Source: an uncultured Mordavella sp.
Lineage (GTDB): Bacteria; Bacillota; Clostridia; Lachnospirales; Lachnospiraceae
DNA length: 26,334 bases
NCBI GenBank assembly: GCA_902406105.1
Contig: CABPCP010000038.1
Location: 1 to 26,334 of the forward strand
Direction of reading: 5' to 3'
The translations under genes were made by a program, and so were the position numbers. The notes beneath the pieces are model-generated. The model made no database searches, was not told the DNA's origin, and saw only the letters and a list, made by a program, of their open reading frames with translations. Below, piece by piece: positions 7,339-25,869 of the stretch (position 1 is its first letter; each line of letters begins with the position of its first letter).

Positions 7339-8874
7339 ATGAGTAAGAAACCAACAGTATTGATGATCTTAGATGGATATGGATTGAATGACAGCGTGAA
7401 AGGCAACGCGGTGGCGGAGGGCAAGACCCCAGTCATGGATCGGCTGATGAAGGAGTATCCATTTGTAAAAGGGAACGCCAGCGGCATGGCGGTCGGCCTG
7501 CCGGACGGACAGATGGGAAACTCTGAGGTGGGACATCTGAATATGGGAGCCGGTCGGATCGTGTATCAGGATCTGACCAAGATCACGAAAGCGATCCAGG
7601 ATGGAGATTTCTTTGAGAACAAGGCGCTTCTTGCGGCCTGCGCAAATGTGAAGGAGAATGGTTCCAGCCTGCATCTGATGGGCCTGGTATCAGACGGCGG
7701 TGTGCACAGCCATATCGAGCACATTTTCGGTCTGCTGGAACTGGCAAAACGGCAGGGAATTGAGAAGGTTTACGTGCATTGTTTCCTGGACGGCAGGGAT
7801 ACACCTCCGGCCTCTGGAAAAGAATATGTGGAGCAGCTGGAAGCGAAGATGAAAGAACTTGGCGTTGGAGAAGTGGCTACGGTAATGGGACGTTACTACG
7901 CTATGGACCGGGATAACCGCTGGGACCGGGTAGAGAAAGCCTACCGGGCGCTGGTATATGGAGAAGGAGAGCAGGCGGCAAGCGGCCCGGAAGGAATCCA
8001 GGCGTCTTATGATAAGGATGAGACCGATGAATTCGTGCTTCCTACAGTAGTGGTAAAAGACGGGAAGCCTACGGCTGTCATTAAAGAAAAGGATTCCATA
8101 ATCTTCTTTAACTTCCGCCCGGACCGGGCAAGGGAGATTACCCGGACATTCTGCGATGATGAATTCACCGGATTTGACCGGGGAGCGCGGGTGAAGACCA
8201 CGTATGTGTGCTTTACAGAATACGATGTGACCATTGAGAATAAGCAGGTGGCATTCGTAAAAGAAGAGATCACCAATACCTTTGGAGAGTTCCTGGCAGC
8301 TCATGGACTGAAGCAGGCCCGGATCGCCGAGACAGAGAAATACGCTCACGTAACATTTTTCTTCAACGGCGGTGTAGAAGAGCCAAACGAAGGAGAAGAC
8401 CGGATTCTGGTCAAATCGCCAAAGGTTGCCACCTATGATCTGAAACCAGAGATGAGCGCGTATGAAGTGTGCGACAAACTGACGGAGGCAATCCGCTCCG
8501 GAAAGTACGATGTGATCATCATCAATTTCGCGAACCCAGATATGGTAGGCCATACCGGAGTAGAAGCGGCCGCGGTCAAAGCCATTGAGGCTGTAGACGA
8601 GTGCGTGGGAAAAGCGGTAGAGGCTATCAAAGAAGTAGATGGACAGATGTTTATCTGCGCGGATCACGGGAATGCGGAACAGCTTATAGATGAGGAAACC
8701 GGCGAGCCGTTTACGGCCCACACTACCAATCCGGTACCGTTTATCCTAGTGAACGCAGACCCGGCGTATCGATTAAGAGAAGGCGGCTGCCTGGCAGATA
8801 TCGCGCCGACTTTGATCCAGTTGATGGGAATGGAGCAGCCAAAAGAAATGACAGGAAAATCCTTGTTAATATAA
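7339..8874 (+). CDS. gpmI: 2,3-bisphosphoglycerate-independent phosphoglycerate mutase
   Basis: This manganese-dependent enzyme converts 3-phosphoglycerate to 2-phosphoglycerate in glycolysis. The 511-residue length is typical. The N-terminus reads LMILDGYGL, holding metal-binding aspartate. Ser62 in [14 protein letters not shown] is the phosphoserine nucleophile. The substrate-binding [11 protein letters not shown] and [13 protein letters not shown] follow, then [24 protein letters not shown] and the metal-binding ADHGNAEQ. Manganese enzymes of this type respond to spore pH in related bacteria, by family knowledge only. AGAAGGAG precedes ATG. The TAA stop at 8872-8874 shares bases with the A5 tail of a REP-like element, so the gene ends inside that element. 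Confidence 0.97.
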
Positions 8875-8937
8875 AAAGGGACAGGGCATTTTCAATCGGG
8901 GACGGGGGATTTTTAAAAATCCCCCGTCCCCGATTGA
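8873..8937 (+). repeat. REP-like palindromic element, copy 1
   Basis: The tail AAAAAGGGACAGGG (8873-8886) is followed by a perfect 46-base palindrome (8892-8937) centred on ATTTTTAAAAAT. Arms read GGGGACGGGGG and CCCCCGTCCCC, unlike the GGGCCGGGGG form of the other copies, yet pairing is kept. The first two bases are also the last two of the gpmI stop. It lies between gpmI and the HAD gene. No T-run follows the hairpin, so it is not a classic terminator. Confidence 0.9.
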
Positions 8938-9604: not shown

Positions 9605-9609
9605 CATAC

Positions 9610-9668
9610 AAAAAGGGACAGGGCATTTTCAATTTGGGCCGGGGGATTTTTAAAAATCCCCCGGCCCC
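9610..9668 (+). repeat. REP-like palindromic element, copy 2
   Basis: Tail AAAAAGGGACAGGG starts at 9610, five bases after the HAD stop and in the same direction. A perfect 32-base palindrome occupies 9636-9667. The element fills the gap between convergent genes, and its palindrome supplies the last codons (GPGDF) and TAA stop (9650-9652) of the minus-strand glycosidase. Confidence 0.9.
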
Positions 9669-20686: not shown

Positions 20687-21675
20687 GAAAATATGTGGTT
20701 CAGGAATCTCTCTTTTTCCTTGGTCTGGGCGATTGCCGTATTCAGCTTCTCGATGCTTTTCGCGGAAATCCACGCCTTGTTTGAGTGATAATAAGAATTG
20801 GCGATCTTCCAGAATTTCTCCGGGTACGCCAGACGGATCTTAAGATACTCCACCGCTCTCTCATCCAGAGGACGGATCGCGGAATAGGCATTCAGCATCC
20901 CATCTCCAAGACGTTCCTTCCATCCTTGCTTTTCCATGACCTTTCTCAGGAAATAATATAGGTCTTCTGTCTGGATATTTAGTTTATATTTTTCAAAATT
21001 AACGGTAGCTACTGTGGTTTTTCCATAGCTATCTTTGATCATCAAAATGTTATGATAATTATATTCCCCGTGAACAATACTGGCTTTCTCTATGCTCTCC
21101 TCAAAGAAATTCCGGTAAGAAGAATTGCTCAGCAGGCTGCCCGCGGCCTCGGTCCATTGGTACATTTGGTCGAAACATTTCAGGAAGGCGACTTCAAACT
21201 CCCCTTTCGGCGTCAGATTCCGCACGAACCGCCGGACTTTTTTTAATTCCCGGTCGTGTCTTTCATATTCCCGATCCAGCGGTTCTGCCGTTGTTATTCC
21301 TTCTGATTCTCCCTCCTGGAGCAGAATATGGAGTTTCGCCAGATTCCCCGCCGCTTCCAGAAGTTCCGCCGGTTTTCGGATGTCACATTCTCGTCCTTGG
21401 AACCATCTCTTCAACAGGTATTTGCTTCCGTCTTCCAGAACGGTCAGGCACTCTCCTTCTTTATTAAGGATGATCTGATCGATATTATGATATCCCTGCT
21501 GCCATAAGTGGTCATATAATCTATAAAGGGCAGAAATGCGCCCCGGCGCAGTGGCCGTCTCCCGCAGGAGAAGCGGGCCTTGATCCGTGTCGCATAAAAC
21601 AGCACCCCTGATCTTACGGGTGCTGCTGACGTCAATATTATATTGTTCCAGCACATACCGCTCATATTCCTGCAT
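20674..21675 (-). CDS. CotS-like, kinase-fold spore coat family protein
   Basis: A 333-residue protein of the aminoglycoside-phosphotransferase-like fold, closest by eye to CotS-type spore coat proteins. The N-lobe carries PLLLRETATAPGRISALYRLYDHL. The catalytic-loop site reads VHGEYNYHNIL, where active kinases usually have HGD. The metal-binding site reads TVNFEKYKLNIQ rather than an IDFD-type DFG. Both changes replace or weaken key acidic residues, so activity is doubtful. The start at ATG 21675 has AGGGGAT upstream and the natural MQEYERYVLEQYNI opening. A longer frame would be translated from REP copy 3. It stands between cca and the phosphohexomutase. Coat function is inferred from family only. 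Confidence 0.75.
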   Translation of the reverse strand: MQEYERYVLEQYNIDVSSTRKIRGAVLCDTDQGPLLLRETATAPGRISALYRLYDHLWQQGYHNIDQIILNKEGECLTVLEDGSKYLLKRWFQGRECDIRKPAELLEAAGNLAKLHILLQEGESEGITTAEPLDREYERHDRELKKVRRFVRNLTPKGEFEVAFLKCFDQMYQWTEAAGSLLSNSSYRNFFEESIEKASIVHGEYNYHNILMIKDSYGKTTVATVNFEKYKLNIQTEDLYYFLRKVMEKQGWKERLGDGMLNAYSAIRPLDERAVEYLKIRLAYPEKFWKIANSYYHSNKAWISAKSIEKLNTAIAQTKEKERFLNHIFSFHL

Positions 21676-21738
21676 ACCAATCCCCTGCACATTATCGTTA
21701 TTATTCTCTCTAAACTTATGAAGCGGGAAGAGAAAATA

Positions 21739-21802
21739 TGATTGGGGCCGGGGGTTTTTTAAAAATCCCCCGGCCCCAATCAAAAATGCCCTGTCCCTTT
21801 TT
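21739..21802 (-). repeat. REP-like palindromic element, copy 3
   Basis: A 44-base palindrome (21739-21782) with one internal mismatch is followed by the tail, read on the minus strand as AAAAAGGGACAGGG (21789-21802). The tail ends 3 bases from the cca stop codon, in the same orientation as cca. The element separates cca from the CotS-like gene. Confidence 0.9.
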
Positions 21803-21805
21803 GAC

Positions 21806-23131
21806 TTATATCCGTCTCAATAGTTCCTCTTTGGTATTTAATTCTGGATGTTTCAGCACAATTTTCAAAAGTTCTTCCAATTTTTCGCCAATCTGCTTTC
21901 CCGGTTCCACCCCCGCTTCTAACAGATCCTTTCCTGATACGGCTAACATTCGCATAGAAACGCACTGTCCTTCCTGCCGTATCTTTCTATACAACTCCTC
22001 AATCTCATCCAGATTCTGTATCTTTCGCTCCCTCTTATACATACTTTGCGCCAGCACATCGGCCCGGCGCACTTCCATATATGACGGAAACAGGTCCTCG
22101 CCGATCAGATATATTGCCTGGCGTACATTATACTCAGTCGCTTCCATTCGATAATCATGGAAGCGAATCAGTCGGCATACTTTACGCAGAGTATCATTAT
22201 CAAATTTCAGCCGTTTTAAAATCCCACGGGCAAGAACCTCACTTTCCGCAGCATGTTTTTTAAAATGCGCTCTTCCAGTCTCATCCATTGTCTTCAATGC
22301 CGGTTTCCCCATATCATGCAAAAGCATCGTCAGCCTCAGCACCTTTTCCGGCCGGATGTTTTTCATCGCGTGAAGGGTATGTTCCCCCACATTGTACATA
22401 TGATGTGGGGTTTCCTGTTCTGTTACCATCAGCCGGTCAAATTCCGGAAGAAATTGCGCAGTAATTCCAAGCCTATAAGCTTCTCCCAATAGTTCAGGCC
22501 TGTTTGAAACAAGCATCTTTACCAACTCTGTCTGAATCCGTTCCGCGCTGATCTTTTTCAGCGTGGGCGCCAGTATGCGCATCCCTTCCTTTGTTTCCTC
22601 GTCAATCGCAAAATCCAGCTGTGCCGCAAAACGTACCCCTCGCAGGATTCGAAGCGCATCTTCGGAGAAACGTTCTTCTGCGTTCCCCACACATCTGATC
22701 ACTTTCTTCTCCAAATCGGAAAGCCCTCCAAAAATGTCCACCAGCCCGTCTTTCTGATTATATGCCATAGCATTAATGGTAAAGTCCCGACGCCTCAGAT
22801 CCTCTTTCAGACTTCGTGTAAACGTTACCTCTTTTGGATGGCGACCGTCCTCATACTCTCCGTCAATACGGTACGTCGTCACTTCAAAGCTTTCCCCCTC
22901 CATGCGTACCGTAACCGTGCCATGCTCAATTCCCGTATCAATCGTACGATGGAAAATCTCTTTAACCTCTTCCGGCATGGCAGAAGTTGTAATATCCCAG
23001 TCCTCCGGCACCCGTTCAAGGATTGAATCTCTGACGCAGCCGCCAACCGCATATGCTTCAAAGCCTTCGCTGTGTAAAACCCGGATAATTTTATTCACCT
23101 TTTCCGGCAAATCTATTTTTAATGTGTCCAT
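21806..23131 (-). CDS. cca: CCA tRNA nucleotidyltransferase with HD domain
   Basis: Adds or repairs the 3' CCA end of tRNAs. The 441-residue protein has the class II nucleotidyltransferase head. AVGGCVRDSIL binds nucleotide and DWDITTSA holds the catalytic aspartates. RRDFTINAMAY, DALRILRGVRFAAQL and an ERIQTELVKM segment follow. The C-terminal half has an HD domain (HHMYNVGEHTLHAM and LLHDMGKP), as in the CCA enzymes of many Firmicutes. GGAGG before ATG 23131 sets the start. Its stop abuts REP copy 3, and REP copy 4 lies 43 bases upstream of its start, so it is bracketed by REP elements of the same orientation. Confidence 0.93.
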   Translation of the reverse strand: MDTLKIDLPEKVNKIIRVLHSEGFEAYAVGGCVRDSILERVPEDWDITTSAMPEEVKEIFHRTIDTGIEHGTVTVRMEGESFEVTTYRIDGEYEDGRHPKEVTFTRSLKEDLRRRDFTINAMAYNQKDGLVDIFGGLSDLEKKVIRCVGNAEERFSEDALRILRGVRFAAQLDFAIDEETKEGMRILAPTLKKISAERIQTELVKMLVSNRPELLGEAYRLGITAQFLPEFDRLMVTEQETPHHMYNVGEHTLHAMKNIRPEKVLRLTMLLHDMGKPALKTMDETGRAHFKKHAAESEVLARGILKRLKFDNDTLRKVCRLIRFHDYRMEATEYNVRQAIYLIGEDLFPSYMEVRRADVLAQSMYKRERKIQNLDEIEELYRKIRQEGQCVSMRMLAVSGKDLLEAGVEPGKQIGEKLEELLKIVLKHPELNTKEELLRRI

Positions 23132-23155
23132 GCAGTTACCTCCATATTCCTTTAT

Positions 23156-23164
23156 ATCATATCA
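23156..23164 (-). promoter_or_regulatory. Possible extended -10 promoter for cca
   Basis: On the minus strand TGATATGAT gives an extended -10 (TG, one base, TATGAT). The -35 position falls in REP copy 4, with no good hexamer. If real, the REP insertion may have displaced an older -35. Confidence 0.3.
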
Positions 23165-23173
23165 CATTTTTAG

Positions 23174-23234
23174 TTGGGGCCGGGGGATTTTTAAAAATCC
23201 CCCGGCCCAAATGAAAAATACCCTGCCCCTTTTT
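23174..23234 (-). repeat. REP-like palindromic element, copy 4 (downstream of RAYT)
   Basis: A perfect 32-base palindrome (23177-23208), extendable with one mismatch to 23174-23211. The tail reads AAAAAGGGGCAGGG on the minus strand (23221-23234), a one-base variant. It begins 3 bases after the RAYT stop codon, in the same direction as the gene. Confidence 0.9.
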
Positions 23235-23237
23235 GAT

Positions 23238-24011
23238 CTAGTTTTTCTTCTGCGTAAGTTCCATTTTTATTATATTCCGGATTTGCTGTACCTTCTTTTT
23301 TGAAATACCAAATGTCTTTTTCATTTCTTCTTCAAATAGGTTTCTTGCCTTTACATAATCTAGTATTTCTCCAGCAGGCAACTCTAGCTCTGTTTCCATT
23401 CTCCCCAGAATTTCTTCTGCAATCGCCTTCCTCTCCTGGAATTCTTCCTCCTGGATATCAATAAAAAAATCTCCGCAACTGGACCGGTGAAATTTTTCAA
23501 ATTCTCTCCGGCTGTAAAATCGACTTCTGAGTAATTCATAACTTTCGGAGTCCAAAAGTTTTTTCTCTTTCACATCCATGTACTCGGTCAGGCTGCTGTA
23601 TGGATAATTCGCAGGATTTTTACACATTTTTGCCTTTACTGGATTCAAATGAATATACCGGATACAATTCCAGAAATATGCTTCACTTTCAATACACAGA
23701 CTTCGGAACCTCTCCTGAAACACATATCCGATCCTGTTATGTTTATAATTGTAATATTGGGCATATGCGGCTAAGATTTTAGCCATGAACAACGATAAAT
23801 TTTTCAGATCTGCTTTGACAAGCAAGTGCAAATGATTTGACATAATGCAATAAGCATATATTTTAATACGGTACTTTTTTACATTTTCCCAAATGATCTT
23901 CCACATTCGGTCCTTTTCTTCTTTTGTCCGGAAAATAGATTCTTTATCCAGCCCTCTAGATACAACATGATAAATTCCTGTCCCACTCTCCCGCCTGGGT
24001 TTTCTCGGCAT
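23238..24011 (-). CDS. REP-associated tyrosine transposase (RAYT, Y1/HUH family)
   Basis: A 257-residue single-strand DNA transposase-like protein. The opening PRKPRRESGTGIYHVVSRG is typical of the family. The metal-binding HUH motif is SNHLHLLVK (His60 and His62). The helix with AAYAQYYNYKHNRIGYVFQERFRS holds the candidate nucleophile tyrosine (Tyr83, Tyr86 or Tyr87). Residues IRYIHLNPVKAKM are also hallmark. A basic C-terminal segment ending in KKKVQQIRNIIKMELTQKKN may aid DNA binding. AAAGGAGG upstream supports ATG 24011. The gene appears more AT-rich than its neighbours. REP elements flank it as mirror images with tails pointing inward, so it probably acts on them. RAYTs usually occur once per genome as domesticated, vertically kept genes; whether this one is active is unknown. 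Confidence 0.93.
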   Translation of the reverse strand: MPRKPRRESGTGIYHVVSRGLDKESIFRTKEEKDRMWKIIWENVKKYRIKIYAYCIMSNHLHLLVKADLKNLSLFMAKILAAYAQYYNYKHNRIGYVFQERFRSLCIESEAYFWNCIRYIHLNPVKAKMCKNPANYPYSSLTEYMDVKEKKLLDSESYELLRSRFYSRREFEKFHRSSCGDFFIDIQEEEFQERKAIAEEILGRMETELELPAGEILDYVKARNLFEEEMKKTFGISKKKVQQIRNIIKMELTQKKN

Positions 24012-24040
24012 TAGCGCCCTCCTTTCATATGGTCATAGCC

Positions 24041-24099
24041 AAAAAGGGACAGGGATTTTTCAATCTGGGCCGGGGGATTTTTAAAAATCCCCCGGCCCC
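24041..24099 (+). repeat. REP-like palindromic element, copy 5 (upstream of RAYT)
   Basis: Tail AAAAAGGGACAGGG starts at 24041, 29 bases from the RAYT start codon, and points toward it. A perfect 32-base palindrome spans 24067-24098, 6 bases from the proS stop. It is opposite in orientation to copy 4. Confidence 0.92.
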
Positions 24100-24104
24100 A
24101 ACTA

Positions 24105-25547
24105 TTAATAAGATTTTCCCCAATATGCCATATGTTTCGCAGGCTTTCCACACCAGATACATTTGTCTGAGATCATTTCTTCATCTTCGATCAGACATCT
24201 GGTAGCCGCTCCGCCGGTCACATATTTTACTTCTCCTTCACATTCTGGGTCTCCACACCAGCAGGCTTTCACGAAGCCGCGGTTCGCTTTGAATTTTGCT
24301 TCCATTTCATCCATGGTCGTAGCTGTGTCGATATGGTTCTGCAGGAATTCATTAGCCCTATCATACATATCCTTCTGTTCCTGCTCCAGGATCTCACGGA
24401 GTTTTACAGCGATCTCATCCAGGGATACGACCGTCTTCTCCCTATTATCCCGGCGAACTACTACCACCTGGTTTTTCTCCAGATCCTTAGGACCAATCTC
24501 GATACGGGTCGGAATTCCTACCATCTCCTGCTCCGCGAATTTCCATCCGGTACTCTTATCAGAATCATCAATCTTCACCCGATAACCTGCTTTTTTAAGT
24601 TCATCCAACAGCGCATACGCTCTGTCCAGAACTCCTTCCTTATGCTGAGCGATCGGAATGATCCGGCACTCAACCGGCGCTACGTGAGGCGGCAGCACCA
24701 GTCCGTCGTCATCACCATGCACCATGATGATAGCTCCGATACTTCTGGTTGACCATCCCCAGGATGTTTCATATGCGCTCTGAAGCTGATTGTTCTTATC
24801 TACATATTTAATACCAAACGCATCCGGGAATCCACTTCCAAAGAAATGGCTGGTAGCGGACTGCAGCGCTTTTCCGTCATGCATCAGCGCCTCGATGGTA
24901 TAGGTATCCTGGGCTCCGGCAAATTTCTCATGTTCTGCTTTCCGGCCGGATACAAATGGAATGGCCAACGTCTCTCTATAGCAGTCTTCATATACATGGA
25001 ACATCTGGATCGTCCGCTCCTCAGCCTCTTCGTAAGTGGCGTGCAGGGTATGTCCTTCCTGCCACAGGAATTCCCTGGAACGCAGGAACGGTCTTGTCGT
25101 CTTCTCCCAACGGAGCACGGAATTCCACTGATTCCATACTTTCGGAAGATCCCTGTAAGAACGTACAGACTTCGCCCACAGATCGCAGAACAGGGTCTCA
25201 GAAGTAGGACGGATACAGAATCTTTCCTGCAGTCTCTCCATTCCTCCATGAGTCACCCACGCAACTTCCGGCGCAAACCCTTCTACATGGTCTGCCTCTT
25301 TTTCCAGAAGGCTTTCCGGGATCAACATTGGAAGGCAGACATTTTCTACCCCTGTTTCTTTAAAACGCCGGTCCAGATCCGCCTGGATCAGTTCCCAGAT
25401 CGCATATCCGTTGGGAAGATAATTCAGGCATCCTTTTACGCTCGAATAATCACAAAGTTCTGCCTCCCGCACAACATCTGTGTACCACTGGGCAAAATTT
25501 TCTTCCCGTGATGTAATATTTTTTACCAGTTTCTTTTCCTTTGCCAT
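24105..25547 (-). CDS. proS: Prolyl-tRNA synthetase, archaeal/eukaryotic-like type with C-terminal zinc domain
   Basis: Charges tRNA-Pro with proline. From ATG 25547 it is 480 residues, the size of the short type without the bacterial editing insert. Class II motifs are visible: motif 2 in NSVLRWEKTTRPFLRSREFLWQEGHT, the RPTSETLF segment, and motif 3 GWSTRSIGAIIMVHGD. An anticodon-binding domain follows, then a C-terminal zinc site, CWCGDPECEG and CIWCGKP. The start is set by AGGAG eight bases upstream. A longer frame begins inside the leader terminator and is rejected. It is controlled by the T-box leader just upstream. REP copy 5 follows 5 bases after its stop. Confidence 0.95.
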   Translation of the reverse strand: MAKEKKLVKNITSREENFAQWYTDVVREAELCDYSSVKGCLNYLPNGYAIWELIQADLDRRFKETGVENVCLPMLIPESLLEKEADHVEGFAPEVAWVTHGGMERLQERFCIRPTSETLFCDLWAKSVRSYRDLPKVWNQWNSVLRWEKTTRPFLRSREFLWQEGHTLHATYEEAEERTIQMFHVYEDCYRETLAIPFVSGRKAEHEKFAGAQDTYTIEALMHDGKALQSATSHFFGSGFPDAFGIKYVDKNNQLQSAYETSWGWSTRSIGAIIMVHGDDDGLVLPPHVAPVECRIIPIAQHKEGVLDRAYALLDELKKAGYRVKIDDSDKSTGWKFAEQEMVGIPTRIEIGPKDLEKNQVVVVRRDNREKTVVSLDEIAVKLREILEQEQKDMYDRANEFLQNHIDTATTMDEMEAKFKANRGFVKACWCGDPECEGEVKYVTGGAATRCLIEDEEMISDKCIWCGKPAKHMAYWGKSY

Positions 25548-25609
25548 ATTCTTTTCTCCTTTTCTTTTCCCCAGGGCCCCTTGCCCCGCATTATATTCTG
25601 ACGGGAGCT

Positions 25610-25869
25610 TTCCTGCGCAAAAGAAAACGCCGGGTTCTTCGCTCCCCAAAAGGGACCGAAAAGCTCGGCGGTACCACCCTCGTTAACTGCAGACCGTCTG
25701 CAGTTCCCTCAATTTGCCAATAACGCCGGCGCGGCGCTGTGCTTTCACACAGAGGCTCCAAGGCGGGTTTCCATGCAGTTCAGGACGGAAATCTTTCACC
25801 CTTTGATCTCCTCTCTTTGGTCCGCTTACATGTACTATTCCTCTTCATCGCCCAAAATTTCTTGAGTTA
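25610..25869 (-). promoter_or_regulatory. T-box riboswitch leader of proS (proline-responsive)
   Basis: The T-box core, AGGGTGGTACCGCC, lies on the minus strand at 25667-25680 and is the antiterminator bulge that pairs with the uncharged tRNA end. Upstream, the stem I region has an AGTA motif, AGAGAGGAG, and nested GGAC/GTCC and CATG/CATG helices. Next to them GAAACCCGCC offers a CCC proline codon at 25765-25767 as the likely specifier. Uncharged tRNA-Pro should stabilise the antiterminator and raise proS transcription. Structure was folded by eye, so the specifier is a good guess rather than proven. Confidence 0.9.
25617..25668 (-). terminator. Leader terminator of the proS T-box
   Basis: On the minus strand CGCCG is matched by CGGCG at the base of a long imperfect hairpin over the T-box side. 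It is followed by TTTTCTTTT (25619-25627). It is mutually exclusive with the T-box antiterminator. Confidence 0.75.

Follow-up and report, generated by a model that had tools for sequence, protein, structure and literature searches.

The RAYT1 locus and its flanking elements

The window, the whole stretch of 26,334 nucleotides analyzed here, encodes a single-strand transposase of the HUH/Y1 type, RAYT1 (23238..24011, minus strand, 257 aa). It lies between two conserved neighbours, proS, encoding proline--tRNA ligase (24105..25649, minus strand; TIGR00408, 582.9 bits), and cca, encoding the CCA tRNA nucleotidyltransferase (21806..23131, minus strand; NF009814, 330.3 bits). A T-box leader (25648-25857, minus strand; Rfam RF00230, 107.1 bits) is found 5' of proS. 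RAYT1 contains a Y1_Tnp domain (Pfam, 1.5e-11) and reaches 78.9 bits against the NCBIfam equivalog REP_Tyr_transpos, for which the cut-off is 80. The HUH motif is H60-L61-H62 (23826..23834, minus strand), where H60 and H62 are invariant among 58 sequences, and the predicted catalytic tyrosine, whose role is assigned by homology, is Y119 of the YIHLNP motif (23655..23657, minus strand). Y119, H121, N123, and P124 are the same in 58/58 aligned sequences. The motifs NHLH, VFQERF, and YIHLNP fit subclass 2.1, the TIRYT type, judged by visual comparison with Table 1 of Quentin et al. (2018, PMC6006769), which gives NHVH and NH[YF]H.

A structure model of RAYT1 displays the HUH/Y1 core common to IS608 and ISDra2, and is closest to E. 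coli TnpA_REP. Residues 178-257 (23241..23480, minus strand) are predicted to form a helical C-terminal domain, possibly HTH-like, which was modelled alone with a pLDDT of 84. A comparison of this domain with the PDB gave no clear match, and no HTH family hits were obtained for the window protein; weak HTH matches, below the Pfam cut-offs, were found in six of eight relatives. Named homologues 51-54% identical to RAYT1 are found in Lachnospiraceae bacterium 42-17, Dorea phocaeensis, and Faecalimonas umbilicata, making the Lachnospiraceae host proposed in the first-pass annotation plausible.

RAYT1 is enclosed by a 75-nt inverted repeat (23161-23235 and 24040-24114, 87% identity), which together with the open reading frame confirms the earlier view of a RAYT gene between two oppositely oriented REP copies. 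Going outward on each side, a tail is followed by a short T-rich spacer and a palindrome centred on TTTTTAAAAA, and the orientation first described, with the tail towards the gene and the palindrome outermost, is thus seen at both ends. The upstream tail of this element, REP1, is CAAAAAGGGACAGGG (24040..24054, plus strand), and the downstream one is TCAAAAAGGGGCAGG (23222..23236, minus strand), with one variant base; as 12-nt units they are AAAAGGGACAGG (24042-24053, plus strand) and AAAAGGGGCAGG (23222-23233, minus strand), with one mismatch. The downstream tail reads GGGGCAGG in the window and GGGACAGG at the same place in G001, the genome nearest to the window (all sampled 31-mers are common to both), and its A-run starts 3 nt past the RAYT1 stop codon. 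Both palindrome cores (24067..24098 upstream and 23177..23208 downstream) are perfect over 16+16 nt, GGGCCGGGGGATTTTT/AAAAATCCCCCGGCCC. The palindrome had been called loop-free. The sequence indeed has no spacer, but the 32-nt core folded alone forms 14 pairs and leaves a 4-nt loop (-28.8 kcal/mol as RNA).

Tails with at most one mismatch occur five times in the window, compared to 0.13 on average and at most two in shuffles (n=100). The three dispersed copies are found downstream of cca (21740..21801, minus strand, one stem mismatch), at a phosphoglycerate mutase stop codon (8873..8936, plus strand, with the stem variant ACGGGGG/CCCCCGT), and at 9609..9668 (plus strand), where the window leaves the gene order of G001. 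Before this last copy the window corresponds to G001 1924579-1918266 and after it to G001 169213-155970 (99.6-99.7%), the overlap being the element. At the two junction places the G001 order is found in G003 at both and in G002 at one, these being the other two genus members sampled. A rearrangement at this REP1 copy, or else a misjoin in the assembly, would account for the junction.

REP1 and RAYT genes in related genomes

The RAYT loci compared comprise 51 of the 76 matches in the relatives, with each of the 42 RAYT-bearing relatives represented by its best match, and a further 80 loci from named genomes, viewed with up to 1.5-2.5 kb of flank, some of it cut by contig ends. A RAYT at the same place between proS and cca is found at four of these 131 loci, one each in G001, G002, G003, and G087. 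The one-contig genome G001 encodes two RAYTs, RAYT1 (98% identical to that of the window) and a paralogue, RAYT2 (L002 1501-2268, corresponding to G001 1029793-1030560), which is 45% identical to RAYT1 and scores 75.3 bits against REP_Tyr_transpos. Between species the dN/dS of RAYT1 is 0.04-0.08, at saturated synonymous sites (pS 0.69-0.75), while the within-species value for the window and G001 is 0.47, a figure with very few changes behind it. These comparisons indicate that RAYT1 is under purifying selection and stays at one locus.

A palindrome pattern, GGGNCGNGGNNTTTTTAAAAANNCCNCGNCCC, was written to fit the stems of the three genus members, and families of another type are invisible to it. 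It is matched 116 times in G001, 52 in G002, 38 in G003, and eight in G087, and not at all in 141 of the 145 relatives; the reversed control gave no match in any of the 145. The REP1 stem type is accordingly present in 4/4 genomes with a RAYT between proS and cca and in 0/141 without, 38 of which carry another RAYT homologue. An equal abundance of the pattern in genomes lacking this RAYT had been named as evidence that would count against the unit; the sampled genomes lacking it do not share the pattern. As all three sampled genus genomes carry RAYT1, the association between RAYT1 and REP1 is as much a matter of phylogeny as of function.

In the genus members a tail-spacer pattern was matched 61, 41, and 55 times (61 in G001, compared to its 116 palindromes); of the 142 genomes outside the genus, 11 have one or two matches and 131 none. 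The exact 12-mer tail is found 55 times in G001. When one mismatch is allowed the number is 137, compared to 65 for the reversed pattern, and the one-mismatch matches are therefore largely background. A palindrome lies beside 45 of the 51 exact G001 tails inspected, and is absent at L024, L025, L033, L034, L038, and L040.

RAYT2 has a layout like that of RAYT1, with inverted flanking copies of its own type, but here the tail is GGTACAGGG, partly present as several direct modules, and the palindrome is looped and of the GGACGTAG type. The RAYT2 tail, AAAAGGTACAGGG, is found 11, 9, and 10 times in the genus members and 0-2 times in each of the 142 genomes outside, where the reversed control gave 0-3. 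G087 contains a private GGGGACGGAGG family (50 half-site matches, 0-3 in other genomes), and G029 a private AGCAGGCGAAAACGG family (42 matches, 0-1 in other genomes). The RAYT of G038 also has flanking elements, but their tail pattern is matched only three times, and no amplified family is seen. At two sites, REP1 in one species corresponds to a RAYT2-type element in another (G001 L159 versus G003 L177, and G003 L190 versus G001 L142). With two RAYTs and separate substrates, G001 offers a built-in test of specificity, RAYT1 versus RAYT2 elements.

Genomic sites and concerted change of the palindromes

The tailed copies mostly lie outside genes. Using a simple ORF caller, 3/50 in G001, 9/43 in G003, and 4/21 in G002 are found within ORFs, compared to 87-91% of random points. 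For genes that flank the tail and are transcribed in the direction of the element, the stop codon is found at most 17 nt from the tail start in 29/33 cases in G001, 19/28 in G003, and 13/16 in G002. In G001, 26 of the 50 copies are located within 350 kb, a distance set post hoc, of the GC-skew switch at coordinate 0; RAYT1 is also near this switch, and the two causes of clustering are confounded. The strand bias of REP1 relative to replication is not significant (29:21 and 26:17), contrary to what a lagging-strand mechanism might be expected to give.

The trinucleotide TYA precedes AAAAGGG in 66 of 114 tailed copies (28/50, 23/43, and 15/21), copies at shared sites not being independent, compared to 5-6% before AAAA generally. 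At three tailed G001 sites the element is absent in G003, and in two of them TCA is found at the insertion point; other such cases are less clean, and a base-perfect join is seen in none. Sites where the element is missing in a relative are L135:6045, L134:17989, L133:3844, and L158:15249. Element-free sites and a TYA/A junction resembling a short target, as well as the core shared with IS608 and ISDra2, could be taken to mean that REP1 belongs to an ordinary IS200/IS605 element or a derived MITE family, with the RAYT as a transposase in passing. This is very improbable given that G001 holds one RAYT1 and one 45% paralogue where an IS200/IS605 insertion sequence would show several near-identical transposases per genome, that the place between proS and cca is constant in four species, that RAYT1 has stayed intact across saturated synonymous divergence, and that the NCBIfam IS200 model gives 22.1 against a cut-off of 55.

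The tail next to the RAYT, GGGACAGGG, is identical in G001, G002, and G003, while the palindrome differs among the three, a pattern that fits a recognition site. The tail had been put forward as the candidate site for recognition or cleavage, and its constancy beside the gene in three species agrees with this. On the other hand, 13 of the 73 palindromes in the sampled G001 stretches are tail-less, with a stem still of the species type, and the tail constancy of the dispersed copies is partly circular since both copies and stretches were chosen by the tail. Exact GGGACAGG is found near palindromes in 60/73 cases in the sampled stretches of G001, 47/51 in G003, and 23/26 in G002. On reading, the 24 G001 palindromes outside the tail expression comprise ten with GGGACAGG and another lead, one that is unrelated, and the 13 tail-less ones. 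A tail remnant, AAAAAGGGCAGGGTATT, is found without a palindrome in G002 (L197) at the site orthologous to G001 L135:7307, apparently as a deletion product.

At six of the ten unit ends tested, the tail is similar to the palindrome arm next to it when both are read in one direction (matched by at most 7 of 1000 shuffles), and in G029 the two are identical over 20 nt. Among the same ten ends the likeness is not seen at RAYT2, at G087, or at the upstream end in the window. In many unit ends, tail and arm look like copies of one module, and the likely plan of a unit is at least one direct module next to the gene, with the inverted pair at the outer end. This would suggest a route from plain terminal repeats, made up of direct modules, to a hairpin element made up of an inverted pair.

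The 114 tailed copies of the sampled stretches have 33 distinct cores, and in these, six of 15 pairs have changed on both sides. Paired cells amount to 95.6% compared to 38-62% for slid partners, a share that is partly built in as the cores came from a palindrome finder. The palindrome pattern leaves four positions per arm free, and all of these pair in 73 of 76 listed places (hand count). The commonest stem is GGGCCGGGGGA in G001, GGGCCGTGGTA in G002, and GGGACGTGGTA in G003.

The sampled G001 stretches contain 74 palindromes, one of them unrelated, and for 39 sites both flanks could be placed in a G002 or G003 stretch. At these 39 sites the palindrome is also present in G003 at 24, and by pattern in G002 at 20, a count that includes at least one false match (L135:7307, where the tail remnant stands alone); the proportions are biased, as the stretches were picked for containing elements. 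For the 24 sites common to G001 and G003, where each species has a palindrome of its own with changes in both arms, the average difference between 11-nt arms is 0.33 within G001 and 0.08 within G003, while the same-site difference between the two is 2.92, with a minimum of two. Plain inheritance would hardly account for stems that are uniform in each species and yet different at shared sites, and the alignments indicate that the REP1 family evolves in concert within each species, with RAYT1 fixed at one locus.

Concerted change could also come about if the palindromes were host-maintained 3'-end elements, mRNA stabilisers or transcription attenuators, kept in place by selection and homogenised by ordinary gene conversion, with the RAYT merely located between two of them. 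Many copies abut stop codons, many sites are common to several species, the tail-less palindromes are also of the species type, and as RNA the hairpins are highly stable (-29 to -42 kcal/mol for the four stretches folded), all of which is in keeping with such a role. However, no such stem is found in the 141 sampled genomes that showed no RAYT between proS and cca, the families differ from RAYT to RAYT, and both G001 RAYTs lie between inverted copies of their own type. Furthermore, a terminator scan of 21600-24300, covering three of the five REP1 copies in the window, called none of them. Host maintenance is therefore considered unlikely, though less so than an IS200/IS605 origin.

Relation to known systems and proposed mode of action

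TIRtrons contain a RAYT-like gene, TIRYT, between long terminal inverted repeats with a GGGGWSAS motif; some of these repeats are self-complementary, and there are families of moderate abundance among them (Di Nocera, De Gregorio, Rocco 2013, PMC3733652). The RAYT1 locus is similar in that the gene is found between inverted repeats with a motif that partly resembles GGGGWSAS, here GGGACAGG and in relatives GGGGAC. The fit is partial for the window tails GGGACAGG and GGGGCAGG, while GGGGACAG is found at the G003 downstream and G087 upstream ends. Unlike TIRtrons, REP1 comprises up to 116 palindromes that are mostly singletons, shows species-specific double-sided stem changes, and goes with one syntenic RAYT. 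The words 'Firmicutes' and 'Clostridi' do not occur in the main text of the TIRtron paper, figures aside (PMC3733652).

According to Table 1 of the survey by Quentin et al. (2018, PMC6006769), subclass 2.1 equals group 1 of Bertels. RAYT1 shares with it the NHxH, FQ, and YIHLNP motifs, the extra C-terminal domain, and the low copy number, with 257 aa compared to a median of 238 aa. That survey reports no REP-like sequences for subclass 2.1 by automatic or manual search, whereas RAYT1 has a clear REP-like family, and a subclass for which a large survey reported none is hence now tied to one. The first-pass annotation compared the locus to the REP/RAYT units of Gammaproteobacteria. This holds for a RAYT with its own inverted REP-like elements, but the motifs fit subclass 2.1/TIRYT and the nearest kin is the TIRtron (PMC3733652; PMC6006769). 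RAYT1 may hence be described, from its sequence, as a RAYT whose motifs are those of subclass 2.1/TIRYT and whose ends are TIRtron-like, and it would act in the manner of REP/RAYT pairs.

E. coli TnpA_REP recognises a GTAG guide (PMC6006769), and its complex with a hairpin is available as PDB 4er8. In RAYT1 the 'WQ' is F98-Q99, a helical domain of about 80 residues is added, and the elements have no GTAG foot; the GT[AG]G tetranucleotide is absent from the 5' foot of the hairpins in all the REP1 copies of the window, which excludes them from the canonical GTAG REPs and bears out the earlier remark that this REP type is unlike the Enterobacterial and Pseudomonas REPs. The tetranucleotides GTGG and GTAG do occur within stems (L053, L054, L236, and L057), as CGTGG in G002 and G003 and as CGTAG in the RAYT2 type and in G038. 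The window's own stems lack them, and their identity with the classical foot is possibly a coincidence. A canonical REPtron of the gammaproteobacterial kind, transferred into Clostridia, would explain the overall layout, a RAYT between two inverted REPs (PMC2817692), and the closeness of the protein model to TnpA_REP. In addition to the missing foot, FQ and YIHLNP in place of WE/WQ and YIHYNP (Table 1, PMC6006769), the fixed position between proS and cca in four species, and the origin of most of the 80 named loci listed from Clostridia or other Bacillota, with other phyla also represented, make such a transfer highly doubtful.

REPINs are populations of short palindromes associated with a RAYT that does not itself spread (Bertels and Rainey 2011, PMC3116915), and in this respect REP1 is similar. 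That paper counts 61% of the REPs as doublets and interprets singlets as defunct remnants. The REP1 copies are mostly singletons, yet uniform. Only three neighbour pairs within 400 bp are found among the 74 palindromes of the sampled G001 stretches (one of them with an unrelated palindrome) and one among 51 in G003, and REP1 thus does not consist of predominantly inverted doublets as REPINs do. Co-change of RAYT and REP is already known, since different REP classes have been reported beside orthologous RAYTs (PMC3686654). Literature searches gave no case in which concerted change at individual sites was reported for a RAYT of subclass 2.1.

The reading preferred here, with a probability of about 75%, is that RAYT1 is a vertically inherited RAYT of subclass 2.1 (TIRYT type), present in one copy, with a family of short palindromic elements of its own, REP1. 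The HUH/Y1 enzyme, probably as a dimer, would bind the REP1 hairpin and the GGGACAGGG tail in single-stranded form, and Y119 would cut where the tail starts on its 5' side, close to the TYA/AAAAGGG junction, and beyond the palindrome. The excised piece might then be joined elsewhere, mostly at gene 3' ends tolerant of insertion. Copying, or replacement of old copies, would keep REP1 uniform, the pair flanking the gene and the dispersed copies making up one substrate, while RAYT1 itself would not spread. More tentatively, and with rather less confidence than in the preferred reading, a domesticated subclass 2.1 RAYT might act as a genome-wide 'updater' and not as a spreading transposon, overwriting dozens of old site-conserved 3'-end hairpins again and again with the current palindrome, using the GGGACAGGG module as address, each species rewriting the same sites to its own sequence.

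REP1 bears on the question of what role a RAYT has for its host, and whether palindromes multiply by copying or by conversion. A constant tail combined with a palindrome that changes by species, also at shared sites, provides a way to separate insertion from overwriting.

Other repeats were also observed. Among the 26 of the 80 named loci inspected, inverted repeats of the GGGACGGTTCT type flank several of the RAYTs, at L292 in the form of a long palindrome. The unrelated palindrome in the sampled G001 stretches, AGAAGAGGGAGCTTTTTAAAAAGCTCCCTCTTCT, is located near a REP1 copy at L133:15932 (about 152102 in G001) and has counterparts at L192 and L178, and is thus present in all three genus members.
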